From assembly GCA_021297795.1 (NCBI GenBank), contig JAJTGL010000006.1, forward strand, positions 1 through 64,000: 64,000 bases of DNA, read 5' to 3'. The stretch comes from Planctomycetaceae bacterium. GTDB taxonomy: Bacteria > Planctomycetota > Phycisphaerae > Phycisphaerales > SM1A02. Of the stretch, positions 34,358 to 48,096 are shown piece by piece. How positions within the stretch are numbered: position 1 is the stretch's first letter; the number at the start of each line of letters is the position of its first letter. The notes below the pieces were generated by a model that did no database searches, was not told the origin of the DNA, and saw only the letters and a program-made list of their open reading frames with translations. Both the position numbers and the translations under genes were made by a program.

Positions 34358-35545
34358 TCACGCGCGCAGCGCGATGGGAATGGGGAGCGAGAGGCATCGG
34401 ATGATCGGTGCGATCGCGCCGACGACTCCGAGGACGATTCCGGAGAGGAGGCCTGCGGCGATGGCCGTCGCATCGACCGAGAGCGCGAACGACCCCATCG
34501 AGAAGCGCACCGCGGCGCCGTCGAGGAAGAGGACCGCGATGAGCGACGCGAGGAGCGCCCCGGCGGAGCACGCGACGAGCGACTCGATCGCGAGCGACAC
34601 CGCGATCGCGGTGCGGCCGAATCCGAGCGCCTGCAGCGTCCCGACCTCGCGGACACGCGAGGCGAAGGCCGCGTACATCGCGTTGAGTCCACCGAGCGCG
34701 GCGCCGCACGAGACGAGGATCGCGGTCGCGAGGACGAGCGCGCGGATCGGCGCGAAGAACTCGGCGAGCCGTGCGTAGTAGTCGCTTTCGGTCATCGCCA
34801 CCGACTCGAGGTCGAGCCGCGTGGCGACCAACGCGTCGACGTCGTCGAACTCGGCGTCGCCGAGTGCGACCACGACGCACGACCGCGTGGTGCGCTGCGT
34901 CAGCTGCGCGAGTCGGTCGAGCCGCATCCAGAACTCGCCGTGCATCGCGGTTCCGGGCGCATGCAGCGTGCCGACCACGGTGAAGGGCTGGCCCGCGATC
35001 AGGAGCGTCGCGCCCTCGCGCGCACCTGCGGCGGCTCCACCGACGCGGGCGAGTGCCTCCGGCCCCGCGGCCACCTCGTCGGCGCCCGGTCGCGGCCAGC
35101 GCCCCGATGCGAGGCGTACCTGCGGATGGACGGCGAACGCCGCGGGTTCGAACCCGCGGACGAGGACGGGCGGCGCCTCGGGGGCCTCGCCTTCCGAACC
35201 GACGGCTTCTCCGCTGAGCGAGACCGGCAGCGCGGCGTGGATCTCGGGCGAGACGAGCGGCTGGCCGGCGAGGACCGCGATGCCGTCGACGCCGGTCGCA
35301 AGCGCATCGGTGACGCCGGGGGCGATCTCGCTTCGCTCGACGCTCTCCTCGCTTCCGGCGGCGAGCACGAGCGCGTTGGTCGCAAGACCGCTGGCGCCGA
35401 GCGAGGTCTCGAGACCTCGCGAGAACGCCACGGCGCCGAGAACGAGCAGCGACACAAGCGCGCTGCCGCCGACGAGCAGTGCCAGTCGGCGCGGGGAGCG
35501 CCCGAGGTTGCGGATCGCATGGTCGAAGGGCAGCAGCCGCATCAT
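34358..35545 (-). CDS. FtsX-type ABC transporter permease (second)
   Basis: The 395-residue product has the MacB/FtsX permease plan: one N-terminal helix (residues about 22-42), a large extracytoplasmic domain to about residue 265, then three helices near the end. Signature sequence GGLNAMYAAFASRVREVGTLQALGFGRTAIAVSLAIESLVA is the conserved FtsX cytoplasmic loop. The ATG overlaps the previous permease's stop (ATGA at 35542-35545), so the two are translationally coupled and probably form a heterodimer. Substrates of such pumps are unknown from sequence; the adaptor upstream suggests export from the periplasm. Confidence 0.88.
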   Translation of the reverse strand: MMRLLPFDHAIRNLGRSPRRLALLVGGSALVSLLVLGAVAFSRGLETSLGASGLATNALVLAAGSEESVERSEIAPGVTDALATGVDGIAVLAGQPLVSPEIHAALPVSLSGEAVGSEGEAPEAPPVLVRGFEPAAFAVHPQVRLASGRWPRPGADEVAAGPEALARVGGAAAGAREGATLLIAGQPFTVVGTLHAPGTAMHGEFWMRLDRLAQLTQRTTRSCVVVALGDAEFDDVDALVATRLDLESVAMTESDYYARLAEFFAPIRALVLATAILVSCGAALGGLNAMYAAFASRVREVGTLQALGFGRTAIAVSLAIESLVACSAGALLASLIAVLFLDGAAVRFSMGSFALSVDATAIAAGLLSGIVLGVVGAIAPIIRCLSLPIPIALRA

Positions 35546-36711
35546 GCCGCACGCATCCCTTCGGCGACCGATCTCCGTGCGGCGATGATCGCGGGCACGC
35601 TGCCTGCGCAGAGGCCGACGAGCGCGGCCGCGAGCGTCGCGCCGATGGCGCTTGCGATCGAGGGACGGAACTCGACGAGGATGCCCTCGGCACCGAGCGA
35701 GAGATCGCCGAACGCGAGCGCGAGCTGCGCGCATCCTGCGCCGATCGCCGCACCGACCGCGGCAAGCGCCGCCGCCTCGACGATGATCGTCCATGCGATC
35801 GCGCGGCCGCCGAAGCCGACCGCCTGCAGCACCGCGAGATCACGCGAGCGACCCTCGAGCGACAGGATGAGCGCGTTCGCGACGAGCGCGAAGATCGCGG
35901 CGAGGGCGCCTGCCCCGAGCAGCCGTGCGAACCCGGCGATCGCGACGAGATCCTCGGCCGCACGCGCGGCAAACGACTTCTCGCTGCGCGTCGAGGTCGG
36001 CGCGGCGTCGCCCGCGAATCGCGCGTCGATCTCCGCCGCGATCCGCTCGAGCGTTCCCGGCTCGGCGATCTCGACCTCGACCTGCGTCACGATGCCGCCC
36101 TGGACGCCGCCCATCGAGGATTGCAGGAACGGCAGCGGCACGAAGCAGGCGTTCCGATCCTGCGGCCCGTCCGCCTCGACGATGCCGGCCACGGTGACCG
36201 TGACACCGGCCGATCCGAAGCGGTCGCCGACCTTGAGGCGCCGTCGCTCGGCGAGCGCGCTACCGACGAGCGCGCCGTCGCCGCGCGCGAGAAAGTCGCT
36301 CATCGAACCATCGATGAACCGGAGCCGCGGCGCCAGCGTGCGCTCGGCGTCCTCGGCGCGCACGCCGCGGAAGACGACGACATCGAGGCTTGCGCGGCAG
36401 TTCGAGACGACGATCTGCATCGGAACCGCGCTCGCGACGCCGGGCATCGCCGCGATCTCGTCGGCGTAGCGCTCCGGGATGCGACTCGTGAACGGGCAGA
36501 ACCGGTTCGCGCGGTAGACGATGAGCCGCGTGTCGCGCGCGCTCGCCTCGGTCGCCTCGCGCACGCCGTCCTGCACCGCGCGCTCGGCGCAGAGCAGGAA
36601 CGTGGCGACCGCGATCCCGAGCACCGACAGCGTCGCGCGCACCCTCGTGCGGACGAGCATCCGCAGCGAAAGCGCCGCGGTTCTCGCGAGATTGCCCGTG
36701 AATCCGCTCAT
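35542..36711 (-). CDS. FtsX-type ABC transporter permease (first)
   Basis: This 389-residue permease has an N-terminal helix (VRATLSVLGIAVATFLLC) and an extracytoplasmic domain. Three C-terminal helices around residues 260-380 carry the FtsX loop NALILSLEGRSRDLAVLQAVGFGGRAIAW. Its start overlaps the ATPase stop and its own stop overlaps the next permease's start, both by four bases. The frame is open further upstream into the ATPase gene, but the ATG at 36711 gives the expected N-terminus. Confidence 0.88.
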   Translation of the reverse strand: MSGFTGNLARTAALSLRMLVRTRVRATLSVLGIAVATFLLCAERAVQDGVREATEASARDTRLIVYRANRFCPFTSRIPERYADEIAAMPGVASAVPMQIVVSNCRASLDVVVFRGVRAEDAERTLAPRLRFIDGSMSDFLARGDGALVGSALAERRRLKVGDRFGSAGVTVTVAGIVEADGPQDRNACFVPLPFLQSSMGGVQGGIVTQVEVEIAEPGTLERIAAEIDARFAGDAAPTSTRSEKSFAARAAEDLVAIAGFARLLGAGALAAIFALVANALILSLEGRSRDLAVLQAVGFGGRAIAWTIIVEAAALAAVGAAIGAGCAQLALAFGDLSLGAEGILVEFRPSIASAIGATLAAALVGLCAGSVPAIIAARRSVAEGMRAA

Positions 36712-37415
36712 CGCGCGGCCTCCGCGCCGCGAGACTCCCGCGCGGCGAGCCGGCCCTTGTCGAGGTGAAGCAGCGTGTCGGCCCGCGCGGCCGCCTCGGG
36801 ATCGTGCGTCACCATCACGATCGTGGTGCCGCGGTCGCGATGGAGCGACGCGAGCAGCGCGAGCACGAGGTCCGCGCTCTCGCGGTCGAGGTCGCCCGTC
36901 GGTTCGTCGGCGAGAAGGAGCGGCGGGCGTGCGACGATCGCGCGCGCGATCGCCACGCGCTGCTCCTGACCGCCCGAGAGTTGCGACGGGAAGTGCGACG
37001 CACGGTCGCCGAGGCCGACGGTGTCGAGCGCCTCCATCGCGCGTCGCGCGCGTTCGGCGCGCGAGAGCGGCTGCAGCAGCAGCGGAAGCTCGACGTTCTC
37101 GAACGCCGTCAGCACGGGGACGAGGTTGTACGACTGGAAGACGATGCCGACCTCGCGCGAACGCCACGCGGCCAGTGCGCCGCGCGAGAGCCGGGCGAGG
37201 TCGTTGCTGCCGATGTGCAGTGCGCCCCGCGTGGGCGAGTCGATGCCCGCGAGGAGATTGAGGAGCGTGGTCTTGCCCGAGCCGGAGGGGCCCATGAGCG
37301 ACACGAACGCGCCGCGCGCGATCTCGAGATCGAGGTCGCGAATCGGAACGATCTCCTGGTCGCCCTTGCGATACACCTTGGTCAGCTTCTCGCAGCGGAT
37401 GAAGGCTTCGCTCAC
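36708..37415 (-). CDS. MacB/LolD-type ABC transporter ATP-binding protein
   Basis: The 235-residue product has all ATPase motifs: Walker A GPSGSGKT (42-49), the Q-loop [22 protein letters not shown], the signature LSGGQEQR, and Walker [13 protein letters not shown] with a switch histidine in VTHDP. The FQSYNLVP and ENVELPLL features match the MacB/LolD group, which powers export with FtsX-type permeases and does not import. Its ATG overlaps the adaptor stop by four bases. Confidence 0.94.
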
Positions 37416-39082
37416 GACGCGCGCTCCTCTCCATCGCCTGCACCGTCGCCTCTACCGTCGACGTCGCTTCCATCGCCCGCGTCTTCCACCGTCGATTCGT
37501 AGGGATCGCCGAGATGCACCTCGCGTGGCGTGGCGCGTGCGCCATCGAGCGTGGTCGCGAGGGTCGCGATCGAGGTGGACGGCGTTCCGTCGACGGCCTC
37601 GTCCGGCAGCACCACGCGGTCGCCGCCGACAAGGCCCTCGTCGATCTCGATCCAGCCGTTCGCGCGCAACGACCCGACGACGACGGCGCGGCGCGCGATG
37701 CGCACGGCGCCCGGCTCGGGAATCACGACCAGGACCTCGCCACTCGAGCCGCGCGTCGGCGCGGACTCGTCGGCGAGGAGGGCCCGAACGGGAATCGCGA
37801 CAGTCTCGCGCTGCGCCGATCCGCCCGTACCGCGCGCGCGGATCTTCACACGGACGAGCATGTCGGCGCGCAGTTCCGCCGGCGGGTCGACGATGCGCAC
37901 CTTGCACTGCACGGTGTTCTTCTGGAGATCGCCGAGCGGAACCAGTCGCTCGACGACGCCTTCGAGCACGCGGTCGGGAAGCGCATCCGCGCGGATCTCG
38001 GCGGCGAGGCCGATGGCGAGGAACGCGGCGTCCTTCGCGGGCACGTCGCATCGCACCTGAAGGCTCGTCGGGTCGTAGAGCAGCGCGATCGGCTCGCCCT
38101 CGAGACCTGCGCGCGCGCCGACGACGGCGCTGCGCGAGAGGATCGTTCCCGCGTGCGGGGCGCGGATCTCGCTGCGCCGAAGGGCGAGCGCCGCGCGATC
38201 GCGCGCGGCGAGCGCCTCGGCCAGTTCGGCGGCGACCTTCGCCTCCATGCGCCGTGCCTCGCCCAGCGCGGTGCGCTCGGCGATGAGCGACTCGCGGGCA
38301 CGTCGCGCGATCTCGACCGAGCTCGCGAGCGCCTCCGCGCGCGCGCGTCGCGATGGCATCTCGACGCGCAGCGCCTCGACGCGCGCCGCGAGCGACGCGA
38401 CGCGCAGTCCGAGCCGGCGAACCTCTCCCTCGGTCGCGCCTCCCGGCGCGATCAGCGCCTTGCGCGTGTCGAGGAGATCCCTGGCTTCCGCAAGTTCGGC
38501 CTCCGCGGCGGCGAGGTCGGCGGGCAGCCGATCGGCGAGCATCCGCGCCTCTGCGGCCGCCGCCTCCGCGGCATGCAATCGGTCGCCCGAGTCGGCGGCG
38601 ATCTCGACCGATCGCGCGGCGAGATCGGCGAGTCCCGCGGAGGCGCTTGCCTCGCGCTGGCGCGCGGAGAGGGTGGCTTCGGCCTCGGCGAGCGCGATTT
38701 CCTCCGCCGCATGCTCGAGCAGGGCGATCACGTCGCCACGGGCAACCGACGCGCCCTCGAGGACCCGCACCTCGGCGATCGTCCCGTCGCGCAAGGCGCG
38801 GAGTTCGGTCGCGAACGGAGCAGGTTCGATCCAGCCCGGCGCCTGCACGGTGCCGGCGTCATCGGCCGTCGAGGTGCCCCCCGTTGCGCGCCCCTGGGAT
38901 GGAATGAGCGCGACGGGCGTCACGCGCACCTCGGGCAGCCGCTCGAACGCGCGTGCGCCGGTGATCGCGAGCAGCGCGATCGCCGTCCCGAGGATCGCGA
39001 GCGGCACGAGGACGCGCGCGACGGTGCGCGAGGCTGGTGGCGGCGGGGCTTGGCCGCCGGCGCTTCGGGTAGGACTCGACAT
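37412..39082 (-). CDS. HlyD/MacA-type periplasmic adaptor protein
   Basis: This 556-residue adaptor has an N-terminal membrane helix (residues about 20-45) and a biotinyl-lipoyl-like half motif GTIAEVRVLEGASVARGDVIALLEH. A long alanine/glutamate/arginine coiled coil follows (residues about 130-310), then the second half motif IRAPHAGTILSRSAVVGARAGLEGEPIALLYD. Beta-barrel and membrane-proximal domains end it. An aspartate/glycine-rich tail is unusual. The coiled coil is long, with a break near DTRKALIAPGGATEGEVRRLG. It is the first gene of the coupled export operon. Confidence 0.88.
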   Translation of the reverse strand: MSSPTRSAGGQAPPPPASRTVARVLVPLAILGTAIALLAITGARAFERLPEVRVTPVALIPSQGRATGGTSTADDAGTVQAPGWIEPAPFATELRALRDGTIAEVRVLEGASVARGDVIALLEHAAEEIALAEAEATLSARQREASASAGLADLAARSVEIAADSGDRLHAAEAAAAEARMLADRLPADLAAAEAELAEARDLLDTRKALIAPGGATEGEVRRLGLRVASLAARVEALRVEMPSRRARAEALASSVEIARRARESLIAERTALGEARRMEAKVAAELAEALAARDRAALALRRSEIRAPHAGTILSRSAVVGARAGLEGEPIALLYDPTSLQVRCDVPAKDAAFLAIGLAAEIRADALPDRVLEGVVERLVPLGDLQKNTVQCKVRIVDPPAELRADMLVRVKIRARGTGGSAQRETVAIPVRALLADESAPTRGSSGEVLVVIPEPGAVRIARRAVVVGSLRANGWIEIDEGLVGGDRVVLPDEAVDGTPSTSIATLATTLDGARATPREVHLGDPYESTVEDAGDGSDVDGRGDGAGDGEERAS

Positions 39083-39944: not shown

Positions 39945-42473
39945 ATGCCTCCAGCGGATCCACCCTCGATCGGCGCGGTCGTCGCGTCGCTTCCGGAGCA
40001 CCTCCGGGAGCGGGTGGCCCTGGTTGCACCGGGGGCGCCGGCGGCAGGGGCTTCGTACGTCCTCTACTGGGCGCATCACGCGCTGCGTGTGGACGAGAAC
40101 CCCGCGCTCGATACCGCGGCCGCGGTCGCGACCGCCCTCGATCTCCCATTGCTCGTCTTCTGCGCGGTGTCGGGATCGCACCCGCACCTCTCGGACCGCC
40201 ACGTCTCGTTCTTCCTCGAGGGCGTGCGCGACTTCGCCGCGGGCCTCGCGGGTCTCGGCGTGCCGTTCGCGGCGTCGATCGAGGCGATGCCTCGCCCCGA
40301 TGTCCCGATGGATCGGCTCGCATCGCGCGCAGCGGTCATCGTCACGGAGGACTTCCCGGCGCAGCCCTTCCCCGATTGGATCGCGTCGATCGGACGGCGC
40401 AGCGGACGCCCGGTGCTCGCTGTCGACACCGCCTGCGTGGTGCCGATGAACGCCGTCGATGGCGTGTTCGACCGAGCCTTCGCGTTCCGCGACGCCACGG
40501 CGCGCGAGCGCGGCCGCCGCACGGGCGCGATGTGGCCCGAGTTCGACTGGACGCGTCGCCGCTGGCCGCTCGCCGATCACACGCTGCCCGAGATCGATTG
40601 GGCGCACCTCGACATCGCGTCGTTCGTTCCGTCGCTCGACATCGACCATACGATCGGCCCGGTGGTCGATACGCCTGGTGGCGCGCGCGCGGCCGAGCGA
40701 CGCTGGCGGGATTTCCTCGATCACCGCCTCGCCGACTACGCGCGCGACCGCAACGACGCAGCGCTCGTTGCCACGTCGCGCATGTCGGCCTATCTCCACT
40801 ACGGCATGATCTCGCCGTTCCGTGTCGCGCGCGACGCGCAGCAGGCGGGTGGGGAGGGCGGCGAGAAGTTCCTCGACGAACTGCTCGTCTGGCGCGAGCT
40901 CTCGTACCACTGGTGCCGGCACGAACCATCGCATGCGTCGATCGAGGCGCTGCCCTCGTGGGCGCGGCGGACGCTGGAGGCGCACCGCGCCGACCCACGC
41001 GACGCGCGGCCGCACGAAACGCTCGAGCGCGGCATCACCGGCGACCGCCTCTGGGATCTCGCGCAGCGCTCGCTCGTCGTGCATGGCGAACTGCACAACA
41101 ACGTGCGCATGACCTGGGGCAAGGCGATCCCGTTCTGGACGAGATCGCCGGAGCAGGCGGTCGCGACGCTTGTCGATCTCAACAACCGCTACGCATTGGA
41201 TGGCGCCGACCCCGCGAGCTACGCGGGGCTCCTCTGGTGCCTCGGGTTGTTCGATCGCGCGTTCGCGCCGGAAGGCCCGGTACTTGGCACGGTGCGCGCG
41301 CGTCCGACGGCAGAGCATGCGGCGCGGCTCGATCTTCAGGCCTTCGAACGGATCGTGACGCGGCCTGCCCACGCGATGCGCGTGGCGGTGGTCGGCGCGG
41401 GTCTTTCCGGCGTCGCGTGCGCCCGCACGCTCGCCGACCATGGCGTCGAGGTCACGATCCTCGAGAAATCGCGTGGCCCTGGCGGCCGCATGAGCACGCG
41501 CCGGGGCGACTTCGGTGCGTTCGATCACGGAGCACAGTACTTCACCGCGCGCGATCCCCGGTTCCGCGCACGGATCGCCGATTGGCTTGAGTCCGGCGTC
41601 GTCGCGCGGTGGGACGCGCGCTTCGCCGAGTTCGGCGCCGATGGCGCGCGCCTCATCCAGACGCCGCCGCGCTTCGTCGGCACGCCGTCGATGAGCGCGC
41701 TGTGCGGGCATCTTGCCGCGGGCATCGCGATCGAAGCCGAGATGCGCGTCGTCGGCCTCGAGCGCGACGGCGATCGTTGGCTCGTCCGCTGCAGCGATCG
41801 CGCGGGCGCCGAGCGGGTGTTCGGGCCGTTCGATGCCGTGCTCTCGACCGCACCGGCTCCGCAGGCCGCGGCGATTCTTGGTGCGCATGCGCCTGCGTTG
41901 GCCGCGATCGCTTCACGCATCGCGATGCGCGCAACCTGGTCGCTGATGCTCTCGTTCCCGCGTCGCATCGAACTCGGTTTCGACCACGCCGAAGTGCTCG
42001 CCGGCGCCGACGATGTGGGAGCGTCGCTCGCGTGGATCTCGCGCGTCGGTTCGAAGCCAGGCCGCGTCGCGGACGGCACCGACCGCTGGGTGGTGCTTGC
42101 CCGGCCGGAGTGGTCGGAGGAGCGCCTCGAGCGGCGGCCCGATGAGATCGCCCCCGAACTGACGCGAGCCTTCGCCGCGCTTTGCGTGAAATCACGCGTC
42201 GAGATGCCCGTTCCCGCGCATGAACTCGCGCATCGTTGGCGCTTCGCGCTTGCTTCGCGCGAGGGTGGCCTCGGCAGCGCGCTCGACCCGCGGCTCGGAC
42301 TCGGCATGGCCGGCGACTGGATGTGCGGCACTCGCGTCGAGGACGCGTATCTCTCGGGCGTGTCGCTTGCGGGCCGCGTGCTCGGCGTGTCGACGACGCG
42401 GGCCCGGCTGCGCGCGGGACTCGCGCGCGATCAGGCCGAGCTTTCGCCCGCGCTCTCCGCGACGCGCGGCTGA
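39945..42473 (+). CDS. fusion of class II photolyase-like and renalase-like FAD oxidoreductase
   Basis: Residues 1-475 resemble class II cyclobutane-pyrimidine-dimer photolyases. There is an N-terminal Rossmann-like part (ALRVDENPALDTAAAVA), and YLHYGMISPFRVARDA. WRELSYHWCRHEPSHASIEALPSWARRTLEAHRADPR (about 312-345) follows. GELHNNVRMTWGKAIPFW and NNRYALDGADPASYAGLLW match the FAD-binding core. From Met478 a second flavoprotein begins: VAVVGAGLSGVACARTLADHGVEVTILEKSRGPGGRMSTRR is the dinucleotide fold of the renalase-like amine-oxidase family, ending with GMAGDWMCGTRVEDAYLSG. No stop or frameshift lies between, and the join is smooth. The photolyase part would repair UV dimers if active; the second part could supply reduced flavin. 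The stop overlaps the convergent membrane gene by 43 bases. Confidence 0.9.
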   Translation: MPPADPPSIGAVVASLPEHLRERVALVAPGAPAAGASYVLYWAHHALRVDENPALDTAAAVATALDLPLLVFCAVSGSHPHLSDRHVSFFLEGVRDFAAGLAGLGVPFAASIEAMPRPDVPMDRLASRAAVIVTEDFPAQPFPDWIASIGRRSGRPVLAVDTACVVPMNAVDGVFDRAFAFRDATARERGRRTGAMWPEFDWTRRRWPLADHTLPEIDWAHLDIASFVPSLDIDHTIGPVVDTPGGARAAERRWRDFLDHRLADYARDRNDAALVATSRMSAYLHYGMISPFRVARDAQQAGGEGGEKFLDELLVWRELSYHWCRHEPSHASIEALPSWARRTLEAHRADPRDARPHETLERGITGDRLWDLAQRSLVVHGELHNNVRMTWGKAIPFWTRSPEQAVATLVDLNNRYALDGADPASYAGLLWCLGLFDRAFAPEGPVLGTVRARPTAEHAARLDLQAFERIVTRPAHAMRVAVVGAGLSGVACARTLADHGVEVTILEKSRGPGGRMSTRRGDFGAFDHGAQYFTARDPRFRARIADWLESGVVARWDARFAEFGADGARLIQTPPRFVGTPSMSALCGHLAAGIAIEAEMRVVGLERDGDRWLVRCSDRAGAERVFGPFDAVLSTAPAPQAAAILGAHAPALAAIASRIAMRATWSLMLSFPRRIELGFDHAEVLAGADDVGASLAWISRVGSKPGRVADGTDRWVVLARPEWSEERLERRPDEIAPELTRAFAALCVKSRVEMPVPAHELAHRWRFALASREGGLGSALDPRLGLGMAGDWMCGTRVEDAYLSGVSLAGRVLGVSTTRARLRAGLARDQAELSPALSATRG

Positions 42474-43342
42474 GCGACCGCCCTCCGGCGTGCGCGCAGG
42501 AAGAGATATGCGGGGACGCTGACGCACGCGACGGATGCGATCCAGCAGAGCGCGGCCGCGAGCGCGACCGGCATCACGGGAAAGAGCACGGTCGCGAGCA
42601 GCGCGTATGTGCTCACGCTGAGCGTTCCGAGCGCCATCGGGCCGACGGCGCCGGTCGGAACGTGCGCTCCCTGCGCAAGCCACGTCGCGACCATGATCGT
42701 CGTGAAGATCACGGGGAAGACCGACGCGATGCCACTGGCGACCGGAAGCCCAGCGCGGTTGAGGAAGATCGCGATCGCGATGACGACCGCGGCCGCGAGG
42801 CCACGGACGAGGAGGATGTGCGCACCCACGCGATGGGTGCCCTTCGGCGCGGGATGCGGTCGGAGATTCGCGGCGATGCCGAGCGCGATCCCGGTCGCGA
42901 AGGCGATCGAGCCCATCACGAGCGACTGCGCGACCGTCGGCTGCACGAGATCGTTCATCCACATGATGCCTGCAGCGATCCAGAACCACGCGCCGAGCGA
43001 GAGCGTGAGCGTCCACGCGAGGAGATGCGTGCGCGTGTGGCGACCGACGAAGGCCGGGATCACGCGCCAGAGGACGAGATAGCCCGCGTTGAGCAGGATG
43101 CCGATCGGGACGAACGCCATCGCGCGTCGGAAGCCTTCGATGTCGTCGCCGGCGCCCCAGATGCCAATCGCGGCCGGGACGATCGTGGTCGGAATGCTCG
43201 AGACGATGCCTCCGCGCGCGCCTCCGAGCCGCTCGACCGCCACGGTCGAGAGGACGGCGACGAGCCCCGCGAATACCGCGGGCAGCGCGAGTTGCGCCAG
43301 CACCGCTGGATCAACGAGTTGTTCGGCCACGGACGCTTCCAT
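42431..43342 (-). CDS. polytopic membrane protein with internal duplication, unknown function
   Basis: The 303-residue product has about eight hydrophobic helices. The two halves look related: GGIVSSIPTTIVPAAIG...FVPIGILLNAGYLVLW in the first and SGIASVFPVIFTTIMV...VPTGAVGPMALGTLSVSTYALLA in the second. Such half repeats are typical of small transporters. The start is the ATG at 43342; a GTG six bases earlier is also possible. It follows DUF2256 by about ten bases and the earlier membrane gene on the same strand, and it is convergent with, and overlaps by 43 bases, the photolyase fusion. Role unknown. Confidence 0.7.
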   Translation of the reverse strand: MEASVAEQLVDPAVLAQLALPAVFAGLVAVLSTVAVERLGGARGGIVSSIPTTIVPAAIGIWGAGDDIEGFRRAMAFVPIGILLNAGYLVLWRVIPAFVGRHTRTHLLAWTLTLSLGAWFWIAAGIMWMNDLVQPTVAQSLVMGSIAFATGIALGIAANLRPHPAPKGTHRVGAHILLVRGLAAAVVIAIAIFLNRAGLPVASGIASVFPVIFTTIMVATWLAQGAHVPTGAVGPMALGTLSVSTYALLATVLFPVMPVALAAALCWIASVACVSVPAYLFLRARRRAVAQPRVAESAGESSA

Positions 43343-43351
43343 CGGCACACT

Positions 43352-43552
43352 CTACCGGGTGCGGCGTACGCCACGCGTCGCGCCGGAAGCGTCGTCTCCG
43401 ACGCGATCCTGCGGACCTCGTCGACGGCAGGCGTCCGAGCAGTACTTCACGTGCTCCCAGTCGCGCTCCCACTTCTTGCGCCACGTGAACGGACGCGCGC
43501 ACGCGATGCACGTCTTCGGTGGGGGGACTGCGGGACGCTCGATCTTCGGCAC
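43352..43552 (-). CDS. DUF2256 zinc-binding protein
   Basis: The 66-residue product shows the DUF2256 pattern: [21 protein letters not shown], then [13 protein letters not shown], with four cysteines in C-x2-C and C-x3-C pairs, a likely zinc site. The GTG at 43552 gives the natural N-terminus ([12 protein letters not shown]). Genes of this family are commonly found next to photolyase or cryptochrome genes, and here one lies about 900 bases away, so a link to DNA repair or light response is reasonable but unproven. The last 20 residues are a disordered tail. Confidence 0.8.
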
Positions 43553-44928: not shown

Positions 44929-47900
44929 GTGCTCCCCAACCTCCAATACGCGGCCATTCGTTACGAGAACTTCCACGGCGAGGTTCTGCTCCCCCGGGTC
45001 TTTCCGATGCGGGTTCCGCTCGAGGTCGGCATGTGGCAGCCGTCGGGCAGCGGCCTCGAGGGCGGCCATCCGCCGCTCGCCGCGGCGCGACGCGCGAAGT
45101 ATCGGCCCGTGAAGGTCGGCCTCCGCTGGGGACCGGTCTGGTCGACCGCGTGGTTCCGGCTCGCGGGCCGCGTGCCGGGCGAGATGCGCGGACACACGGT
45201 GGCGCTGCGGTTCTCCTGCGGCACCGAAGGCACGCTCTGGCGCGACGGCGTGCCGTTCCAGGGCTTCGACCCGTATCGCGACCTTGCGTTCCTCTGGCCG
45301 AAGGCGAAGGGCGGCGAGAAGGTCGATCTCCTCGTCGAGGGTGCGTGCAATCTGCCGCTCGGGATCTCGACCTTCTGGTGGGATCACCCCGAGCTGCAGA
45401 CGCGCTGGCGCGAGCCGCAGCCGGGTCGCCTCGAGAGCGCGGAACTGGTCGTCGTCGACGAGGCCGCGTGGCGCTACGCGCAGGCGTGGGATTTCCTGCG
45501 GCGGCTCATGCTCGCACTGCCCGAGGATTCGCCGCGCGCGACCGAGATCGCGAACGGCCTGCGCGACATCCACGCGTCGATCGATGCGAGCGACCCGGTG
45601 CCCGGCATGGAGGACACGGCCTCCGCGCTCGATGAACTCGTGCAGGGTGGGCCGCACGCGCCGGCGACCGCGTGCGTCGCGGTCGGCCACGCGCACATCG
45701 ACACCGCGTGGCTCTGGCCGCTGCGCGAGACGCGCCGCAAGTGCGTGCGCAGCTTCGCGAACGTGCTGCGGCTCCAGGAGCGCTTCGGCGACTTCCACTT
45801 CCTCTGCTCGCAGGCGCAGCAGTATGCATACGTGAAGGAGGATGCCCCCGAGGTCTACGCGCAGATCGCGCGGCGCGTGAAGGAGGGTCGATGGGAGCCG
45901 GGCGGCGCGATGTGGATCGAGCCCGACTGCACGTGCCCCTCGGGCGAGAGTTTCGTCCGCCAGATCGTGCACGGCACGGGCTTCTGGGAGAAGGAGTTCG
46001 GCGCCGCCGGGAAGCAGCGCTTTCTCTACCTCCCCGACACCTTCGGTTTCCCGCCGTGCCTGCCGCAGATCTCGCGGCTCGGTGGCCTCGACACGTTCAT
46101 CACCAACAAGATGAGCTGGTGCGAGACGAACCGCTTCCCGCACGTCACCTTCCTGTGGCGCGGGCTCGACGGAACCGAGATCCTCACGCACCTGACTCCC
46201 GGTCACAACTACAACTCGTCGATCGAGCCGAAGGACATGCTGTACGGCGAGAAGAACCTCGTCGTGCAGGATGGGCAGAGCTTCTTCTCGAGCGCGATCC
46301 CGATGTGGCTGCAGCCGTTCGGCTACGGCGACGGCGGCGGTGGTCCGACCGACTGGCAGATCGCACGTGCCGAGCTCGCGTCCGACTGCGCGGGGCTTCC
46401 GCGCTTCGAGCAGCACCGCGTCGACGTCTTCTGCGGGAGGCTGCACGCGGGCCGCGAGGCGCTCGAGGCCGCGGGCCGTCCGCTCGCGTCGTGGGATGGC
46501 GAGCTCTATCTCGAGCTCCATCGCGGCACCTACACGAGCCAGGCGTGGCTGAAGCGGCAGAATCGCCTGGCGGAGAGTGCGCTTCGCGACATCGAGGCGC
46601 TCGCGTGCTCGCACCCCGGCGTCACGGCGAAGGAGCGCGAGGCCTTCCGTGGCCGCATCGACGGCGCGTGGAAGGACCTCCTGCTCAACCAGTTCCACGA
46701 CATCCTGCCCGGCTCGTCGATCGAGGTCGTCTACAAGGACGCGCGCGCCGATCACGCGCGCATCATGGAGGCCGCGGAGGACGAGCGCGAGCTGCTCGAG
46801 GGCGCGTTCGCGTCGATCGCGGACACGCGGGGGATGCGGCGTCCGGTGCTCGTGCGGAACACGGCGTCGACCGCGCGCTGCGGTGTCGTCGATCTCGGCG
46901 ACGGCGCGTTGGTCGAGGCGAAGTCGATCCCCGCGCTGGGCGTGCGCGTGATCGACGCGGCCGAGATCGGTGCGCTCCCGGAGGCGGTCGAGGTGAAGGC
47001 GACGAAGCGCGGCGTCACGCTCTCGAACGGCGTGATCCGAGCGCACATCGACCTTGCGGGCCGCGTGTCCGAGCTCGAGCACCTCGCCACGCGCCGCGTC
47101 GCGAACATGCGCGATGCGCGCGGACGCGTGTTGCCGCTGAACCAGCTCGCGCTCTACGAGGACCGCCCGCGACGGTGGGAGGCGTGGGACACCGACCGCG
47201 ACTACATGGACAAGTGCGAGCTGGTCGACGGCGACTGCGAGATCGCGGTGGTCGAGGCGCATCCGCTGCGCGGCGCGGTGAAGGTCGAGCGCGCGATCGG
47301 CGCGAAGAGCCGCATCTGGCAGACCTACCGGCTCGATGCCTCGAGCGGACGGCTCGAGGTCTTCACCGAGGTCGAGTGGCACGAGACGCAGCGGCTCCTG
47401 CGTGCGTTGTTCCCGTGCGCCGTGCGCGCGCGGCACGCTTGGTTCGGCACGCAGTACGGCGCGCTCGAGCGGCCGATTCACCGCAACACCAGCTGGGAGG
47501 AAGCACGCTTCGAGGTGCCTGGCCACGCGTGGATGGACGCGTCGGAGCCGGGTTTCGGCGTCGCGATCCTCGACGATGGCCGCTACGGCCGCAGCGCGAT
47601 CTCGTCGGCCGAGGGCGCCACGTTCGGCCTCTCGCTTCTCAAGAGCCCGCTCTTCCCCGATCCGAACTGCGATCGCGGCGCGCACGCCTTCACCTACGCG
47701 ATCATGCCGCACGCCGGCGACTGGCGCGCGGCAGGGGTCGATCATGCAGCCGACTGCCTGCGCGAGCCGCTGCGCGCGATCCCGCTGAAGTCAGGGAAGA
47801 AGGGGGCCTTGCGCGGAGCATGGGCTCCGTTCGACGTGCTCGCGGCGCAGCCGATGCGCGTCGAGATCAGCGCGTGGAAGCCGGCCGAGGACGGCCGCGG

Positions 47901-48096
47901 CCGCATCCTGCGGCTTGTCGAGACGCGCGGCGCGCGGGGCGACGTGCAGGTGTTCTGGAATGTCGATGCGAGGCGCGTGACCCCGGTCGATCTCCTCGAA
48001 CGGCCGCTTTCGCGCGAGGGGCTCGTGCATTCGGCCGGCGCGGCGACGCTCCTCCGCATGAATCCCTTCGAGATCGTCACGCTGCGGGTCGAGTAG
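44929..48096 (+). CDS. GH38 alpha-mannosidase
   Basis: The 1055-residue product has the GH38 plan: an N-terminal sandwich domain, then the catalytic domain with VGHAHIDTAWLWPLRETRRK carrying zinc ligands His256 and Asp258. QQYAYVKEDAPEVYAQI and LYLPDTFGFPPCLPQI follow, with the nucleophile Asp370. WRGLDGTEILTHLTPG and NQFHDILPGSSIEVVYKDA also match. C-terminal beta domains include the VERAIGAKSRIWQTYRLDASSGRLEVFTEVEWHE section. It hydrolyses alpha-mannosides. It starts with GTG at 44929. No signal peptide is visible, so it should act in the cytoplasm on imported oligosaccharides, which fits the symporter next to it. Confidence 0.94.
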   Translation: MLPNLQYAAIRYENFHGEVLLPRVFPMRVPLEVGMWQPSGSGLEGGHPPLAAARRAKYRPVKVGLRWGPVWSTAWFRLAGRVPGEMRGHTVALRFSCGTEGTLWRDGVPFQGFDPYRDLAFLWPKAKGGEKVDLLVEGACNLPLGISTFWWDHPELQTRWREPQPGRLESAELVVVDEAAWRYAQAWDFLRRLMLALPEDSPRATEIANGLRDIHASIDASDPVPGMEDTASALDELVQGGPHAPATACVAVGHAHIDTAWLWPLRETRRKCVRSFANVLRLQERFGDFHFLCSQAQQYAYVKEDAPEVYAQIARRVKEGRWEPGGAMWIEPDCTCPSGESFVRQIVHGTGFWEKEFGAAGKQRFLYLPDTFGFPPCLPQISRLGGLDTFITNKMSWCETNRFPHVTFLWRGLDGTEILTHLTPGHNYNSSIEPKDMLYGEKNLVVQDGQSFFSSAIPMWLQPFGYGDGGGGPTDWQIARAELASDCAGLPRFEQHRVDVFCGRLHAGREALEAAGRPLASWDGELYLELHRGTYTSQAWLKRQNRLAESALRDIEALACSHPGVTAKEREAFRGRIDGAWKDLLLNQFHDILPGSSIEVVYKDARADHARIMEAAEDERELLEGAFASIADTRGMRRPVLVRNTASTARCGVVDLGDGALVEAKSIPALGVRVIDAAEIGALPEAVEVKATKRGVTLSNGVIRAHIDLAGRVSELEHLATRRVANMRDARGRVLPLNQLALYEDRPRRWEAWDTDRDYMDKCELVDGDCEIAVVEAHPLRGAVKVERAIGAKSRIWQTYRLDASSGRLEVFTEVEWHETQRLLRALFPCAVRARHAWFGTQYGALERPIHRNTSWEEARFEVPGHAWMDASEPGFGVAILDDGRYGRSAISSAEGATFGLSLLKSPLFPDPNCDRGAHAFTYAIMPHAGDWRAAGVDHAADCLREPLRAIPLKSGKKGALRGAWAPFDVLAAQPMRVEISAWKPAEDGRGRILRLVETRGARGDVQVFWNVDARRVTPVDLLERPLSREGLVHSAGAATLLRMNPFEIVTLRVE

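Follow-up and report, generated by a model that had tools for sequence, protein, structure and literature searches.

In class II photolyases, roles have been described for a Trp triad and for an auxiliary Tyr345 (PMC5885780), and residues that contact the CPD and the DNA bubble have been defined (PMC6126647). PhrSph98-type bifunctional CPD/(6-4) photolyases, from proteobacteria, a planctomycete and other sources, are sister to class II (PMC9649867). Characterised renalases oxidise 1,2- and 1,6-NAD(P)H and are inactive on 1,4-NAD(P)H, a specificity based on the human and Pseudomonas enzymes, and nonspecific reduction, whether chemical or photochemical, gives rise to the two substrate isomers (PMC7660482). 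Photolyases and renalases are both known families; in the literature searched, we found no paper on their permanent fusion or on the wider renalase-photolyase association reported here, and none on DUF2256 and photolyases. As far as we know, no biological role for bacterial renalase is yet settled.

A photolyase and a renalase-like flavoprotein in one chain

We analysed a 64,000-nucleotide stretch of planctomycete DNA (the window), in which an ORF with an ATG start and no internal stops encodes both enzymes as a single protein. The features of the locus are as follows.

39945..42473, + strand: fused class II photolyase / renalase-like flavoprotein, 842 aa (ORF, TIGR00591, PDB matches, relatives, model)
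40053..41351, + strand: class II photolyase region, aa 37-469, comprising an alpha/beta and a helical FAD domain; CPD-site and Trp-triad residues present (TIGR00591, residue mapping)
41352..41375, + strand: short interdomain linker, ~aa 470-477 (gap between domain matches)
41376..42386, + strand: renalase-like flavoprotein domain, aa 478-814, GAGLSG dinucleotide fold (PDB 4zcc/3kkj, conserved columns, Foldseek)
42431..43348, - strand: convergent 305-aa ORF, hydrophobic by sequence (no Pfam match)
about 43352..43552, - strand: DUF2256 small Cys protein, GTG start inferred (PF10013, 5.1e-18; neighbour in several fusion loci)

The N-terminal half matches the class II photolyase profile TIGR00591 (E=2.6e-83, 280.8 bits), and because this score lies under the curated cut-off of 550 bits we regard it as a divergent class II member. 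It also matches the M. mazei class II structure (PDB 2xry, E=9.6e-51 on aa 34-452) and carries the motifs WRELSYHW, MTWGKAIPFW and NNRYALDGADP, starting at aa 316, 389 and 413. The C-terminal half, which begins at Met478, matches Pseudomonas renalase (PDB 4zcc, E=1.5e-54 on aa 479-813; PDB 3kkj also matched). The original prediction of a photolyase joined in one chain to a complete second flavoprotein with its own dinucleotide fold is borne out: the frame is unbroken, all of the named motifs are present, and the second half combines the GAGLSG motif and the 4zcc match with intact conserved columns. An assembly or frame error, or a hidden stop near 41370, can be rejected because the frame is intact at that point and relatives at ~60-71% identity carry the same fusion. 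Nothing notable was found among repeats around the fusion gene.

AlphaFold2 models were confident for the window protein (pLDDT 94.6, pTM 0.94) and for a relative from Planctomycetes bacterium K23_9 (pLDDT 93.1, pTM 0.93), the two fusions being 43% identical to each other. These models suggest that the two halves are held in a fixed arrangement. Foldseek searches with the AlphaFold2 model placed MmCPDII (2xry/7yc7) and renalase structures on separate halves, and among the matches listed none spanned both.

The fusion gene shares its final 43 nt with the convergent 305-aa ORF. A DUF2256 gene had been described as adjacent to the fusion and as indicating a light or DNA-repair context. That context is supported and PF10013 is indeed present nearby, but it lies on the opposite strand, separated from the fusion by another gene, and so counts as a neighbour without operon linkage. 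Elsewhere in the window, a 1055-aa glycosyl hydrolase family 38 alpha-mannosidase is encoded at 44929-48096 (+), and at 34358-39082 (-) an HlyD-type membrane-fusion protein gene lies with ABC-transporter-like ATPase and permease-like ORFs, a group that probably forms an export system.

Conservation of both active sites

We mapped M. mazei class II residues onto the fusions, with a constant numbering offset of 18 across ten marker residues. At least 85 of 88 fusions keep E301, W305, W360, R378, M379, W381, W388, N403, D409 and W421 (M. mazei numbering), most exceptions coming from a single degenerate locus, and R256, D428, R429 and R441 are likewise kept. The FAD-site residues N403, R378 and D409, which correspond to N413, R388 and D419 in the window protein, are retained in 86-88 of the 88, so the photolyase half has not lost its FAD-binding residues. 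CPD-binding E301, W305, M379, W421 and R256 correspond to E312, W316, M389, W431 and R269, and the Trp triad W381-W360-W388 is complete as W391, W370 and W398. Many fusions lack the auxiliary donor Tyr345, which is replaced by R355 in the window protein. Residues P53, P141 and C164 in the N-terminal domain are specific to the fusions.

In the renalase half, G484, G486, G514, R515, D527, G529, G790 and D791 (window numbering) are near-invariant, and the conserved and invariant columns do not differ between fused and stand-alone renalases. Judged from sequence, both flavoprotein active sites look intact.

The degenerate locus (L197/L207, 4142-6559, - strand, genome G667; one locus seen twice) has a photolyase half that lost key residues, with equivalents of E301Y, W305Q, R378F, M379K, W381Y, N403Y and W421C, in a frame still fused to the renalase half. 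This fusion may be decaying or repurposed.

Distribution and evolution of the fusion

Besides the source genome, the same fusion was present in 9 of 60 relatives searched, including 8 from its own genus. Surveys found it in 14 of 292 Planctomycetota and ~20 of 193 Myxococcota genomes, and more than 50 loci from genome collections fell in Planctomycetota, Myxococcota, Pseudomonadota, Acidobacteriota, Gemmatimonadota and Thermodesulfobacteriota. Overall, ~80 distinct loci across Planctomycetota, Myxococcota, Pseudomonadota and others encode the joined protein, which is carried by dozens of bacterial species from several phyla, and the gap between domain matches is 8-19 aa among the fusions listed. 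The two families thus do co-occur in related genomes, and the photolyase-renalase fusion is a real, conserved protein and no artefact.

The two halves have different histories. Photolyase halves formed a single clade in every bootstrap tree (100/100 support), and neither MmCPDII nor any sampled canonical class II protein fell inside it. Among the matches listed from 485 genomes (292 Planctomycetota, 193 Myxococcota), no member of this clade was unfused, in a sampling that was partly driven by renalase motifs and from which rare unfused members could have escaped. Renalase halves formed a clade in 0 of 200 bootstrap trees; strongly supported branches force at least 8 changes, with stand-alone genes sister to fused ones. 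The simplest reading of these trees would be that the photolyase was fused once, after which either its half was lost or the renalase half was exchanged. At six other loci (L208-L213), class II photolyases seemed to be extended at the N terminus; the extra sequence yielded no domain and most likely reflects shadow reading frames of GC-rich DNA.

Genomic association of renalases with photolyases

Of 78 fusions, 14 have a second photolyase gene within 8 kb (a DPRP in 10 of these 14), and 10 of 67 stand-alone renalases have a photolyase gene at that range, compared to none of 30 canonical class II loci (Fisher p = 0.0098 and 0.029, for loci that are not fully independent). If a genome is taken to hold two or three photolyase genes, roughly 0.35-0.56 neighbours would be expected by chance. 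The photolyases near renalase genes include class I-like, class II and DPRP types, and because stand-alone renalase genes also adjoin photolyases of other classes (10/67, with <0.6 expected), we conclude that the photolyase-renalase functional link is real. A universally conserved fusion neighbourhood is rejected, given the 14 of 78 and the lack of a second photolyase near any of 15 Myxococcota fusions; 57 of the 67 stand-alone renalases examined likewise had no photolyase nearby. DUF2256 was near 9 of 78 fusions and 4 of 67 stand-alone renalases.

A canonical class II photolyase is also encoded in many fusion genomes, and on contig C57 of the source genome DPRP, DUF1731-epimerase and class I photolyase genes form a cluster of their own (L247, 5597-10492), so the fusion is an additional photolyase. 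Another close renalase was found in only one of 42 fusion genomes (G173), a suggestive scarcity.

Several individual arrangements were seen. At L099 (4631-8735) a stand-alone renalase gene has a class I-like photolyase gene on each side, all on the same strand, and at L138 (4625-8773) SDR, DPRP photolyase and renalase genes form a tight co-directional run. At L134 (7258-14715) a renalase and a photolyase gene overlap, and within 7 kb lie a further photolyase-like gene, a DUF2256 gene and a DPRP gene. At L079 (5866-9754) a canonical class II photolyase gene is followed directly by the fusion gene.

A candidate light-damage repair enzyme with two activities

The two halves of the fusion probably repair two kinds of sunlight-related damage. 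On balance, and with modest confidence, we favour an enzyme with two activities, in which the photolyase half would act on DNA dimers and the renalase half on damaged NAD(P)H isomers. The N-terminal class II CPD photolyase is predicted to bind cyclobutane dimers and split them with light, its own FAD being photoreduced through the conserved Trp triad. By analogy with characterised enzymes, the C-terminal renalase-type oxidase would most likely convert damaged 1,2-/1,6-dihydro NAD(P)H to NAD(P)+, and the linkage may mainly ensure joint production under sunlight stress. We infer the activities of both halves from what was observed: the fusion and its spread, residue conservation, two confident models, a single fused-photolyase origin and the renalase-photolyase genomic association. 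That every sampled member of the fused-photolyase clade carries renalase counts against this reading, as it suggests a dependence beyond co-expression, and the frequent loss of Tyr345 and the missing neighbourhood link in the 15 Myxococcota fusions also speak against it.

The original prediction instead proposed a self-charging photolyase supplied by an NAD(P)H-using flavoprotein. In a revised form of this scheme the renalase half would hand electrons on to the photolyase, either to its FAD or to the oxidised Trp/Tyr chain, so that the cofactor stays as FADH-, and stand-alone renalases would serve neighbouring photolyases in the same way. A photolyase clade seen only together with renalase, the confident two-domain models, the loss of Tyr345 and the proximity of renalase genes to several photolyase classes are all consistent with it, but the nearly invariant triad suggests that photoreduction is intact (PMC5885780) and needs no partner, 1,4-NAD(P)H is not a renalase substrate (PMC7660482), stand-alone renalases are nested among fused ones, and most of those examined lack a nearby photolyase. 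Electron supply is therefore weakened and, in our view, unlikely, the inactivity on 1,4-NAD(P)H and the intact triad being our reasons for preferring two activities. Quite improbable is a version in which hydride taken from the damaged isomers is passed to the photolyase FAD/Trp chain and not all to oxygen; if true, detoxification of NAD(P)H photodamage would charge DNA photorepair.

Two unrelated light-stress activities may also have been joined by chance and retained through their membership of one regulon, with no exchange between their sites. Identical conserved columns in fused and stand-alone renalases, repeated separation in the renalase tree and second photolyases near both kinds of gene fit such an origin, yet the consistently short linker, the high-pTM models and a photolyase clade found only fused suggest a fixed interface, and we consider it distinctly unlikely. 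A renalase half whose substrate is a photolyase chromophore or another small molecule (e.g. a deazaflavin or pterin antenna) instead of NAD(P)H isomers is highly improbable: the fusion-specific P53, P141 and C164 could be read this way, but the renalase columns are unchanged from stand-alone relatives and we found no direct support.

A photolyase clade seen only in fusion with renalase, together with renalases beside several other photolyase classes, points to a light-damage role for bacterial renalase that is directly testable, and the fusion offers a natural system for asking whether a partner flavoprotein can reduce photolyases.

Comparison with known enzymes

The fusions share with MmCPDII (PDB 2xry; TIGR00591) a fold of ~450 aa (TM-score 0.87-0.89 by target length) and its lesion, FAD and Trp-triad residues. 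They differ in forming a separate clade that scores below the TIGR00591 cut-off, in their extra C-terminal flavoprotein and, in MmCPDII numbering, in the loss of Y345 in many members and in K384 to A, Y380 to T and W431 to F changes. A PhrSph98-type CPD/(6-4) photolyase is rejected on diagnostic residues: in PhrSph98 the W421 position is occupied by Ala430 and the proposed chain includes Tyr389 (PMC9649867), whereas the window fusion has W431 and T390, and the fused consensus is W (85/86) and T (85/86) at the W421 and Y380 positions. Compared to Pseudomonas renalase (PDB 4zcc/3kkj), the C-terminal half is ~35% identical over 336 aa, with a TM-score of 0.92-0.94 by target length and the same conserved columns. 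It carries H528, the family majority, where the Pseudomonas enzyme has Met, and is fused behind a photolyase whereas the Pseudomonas structures are stand-alone.
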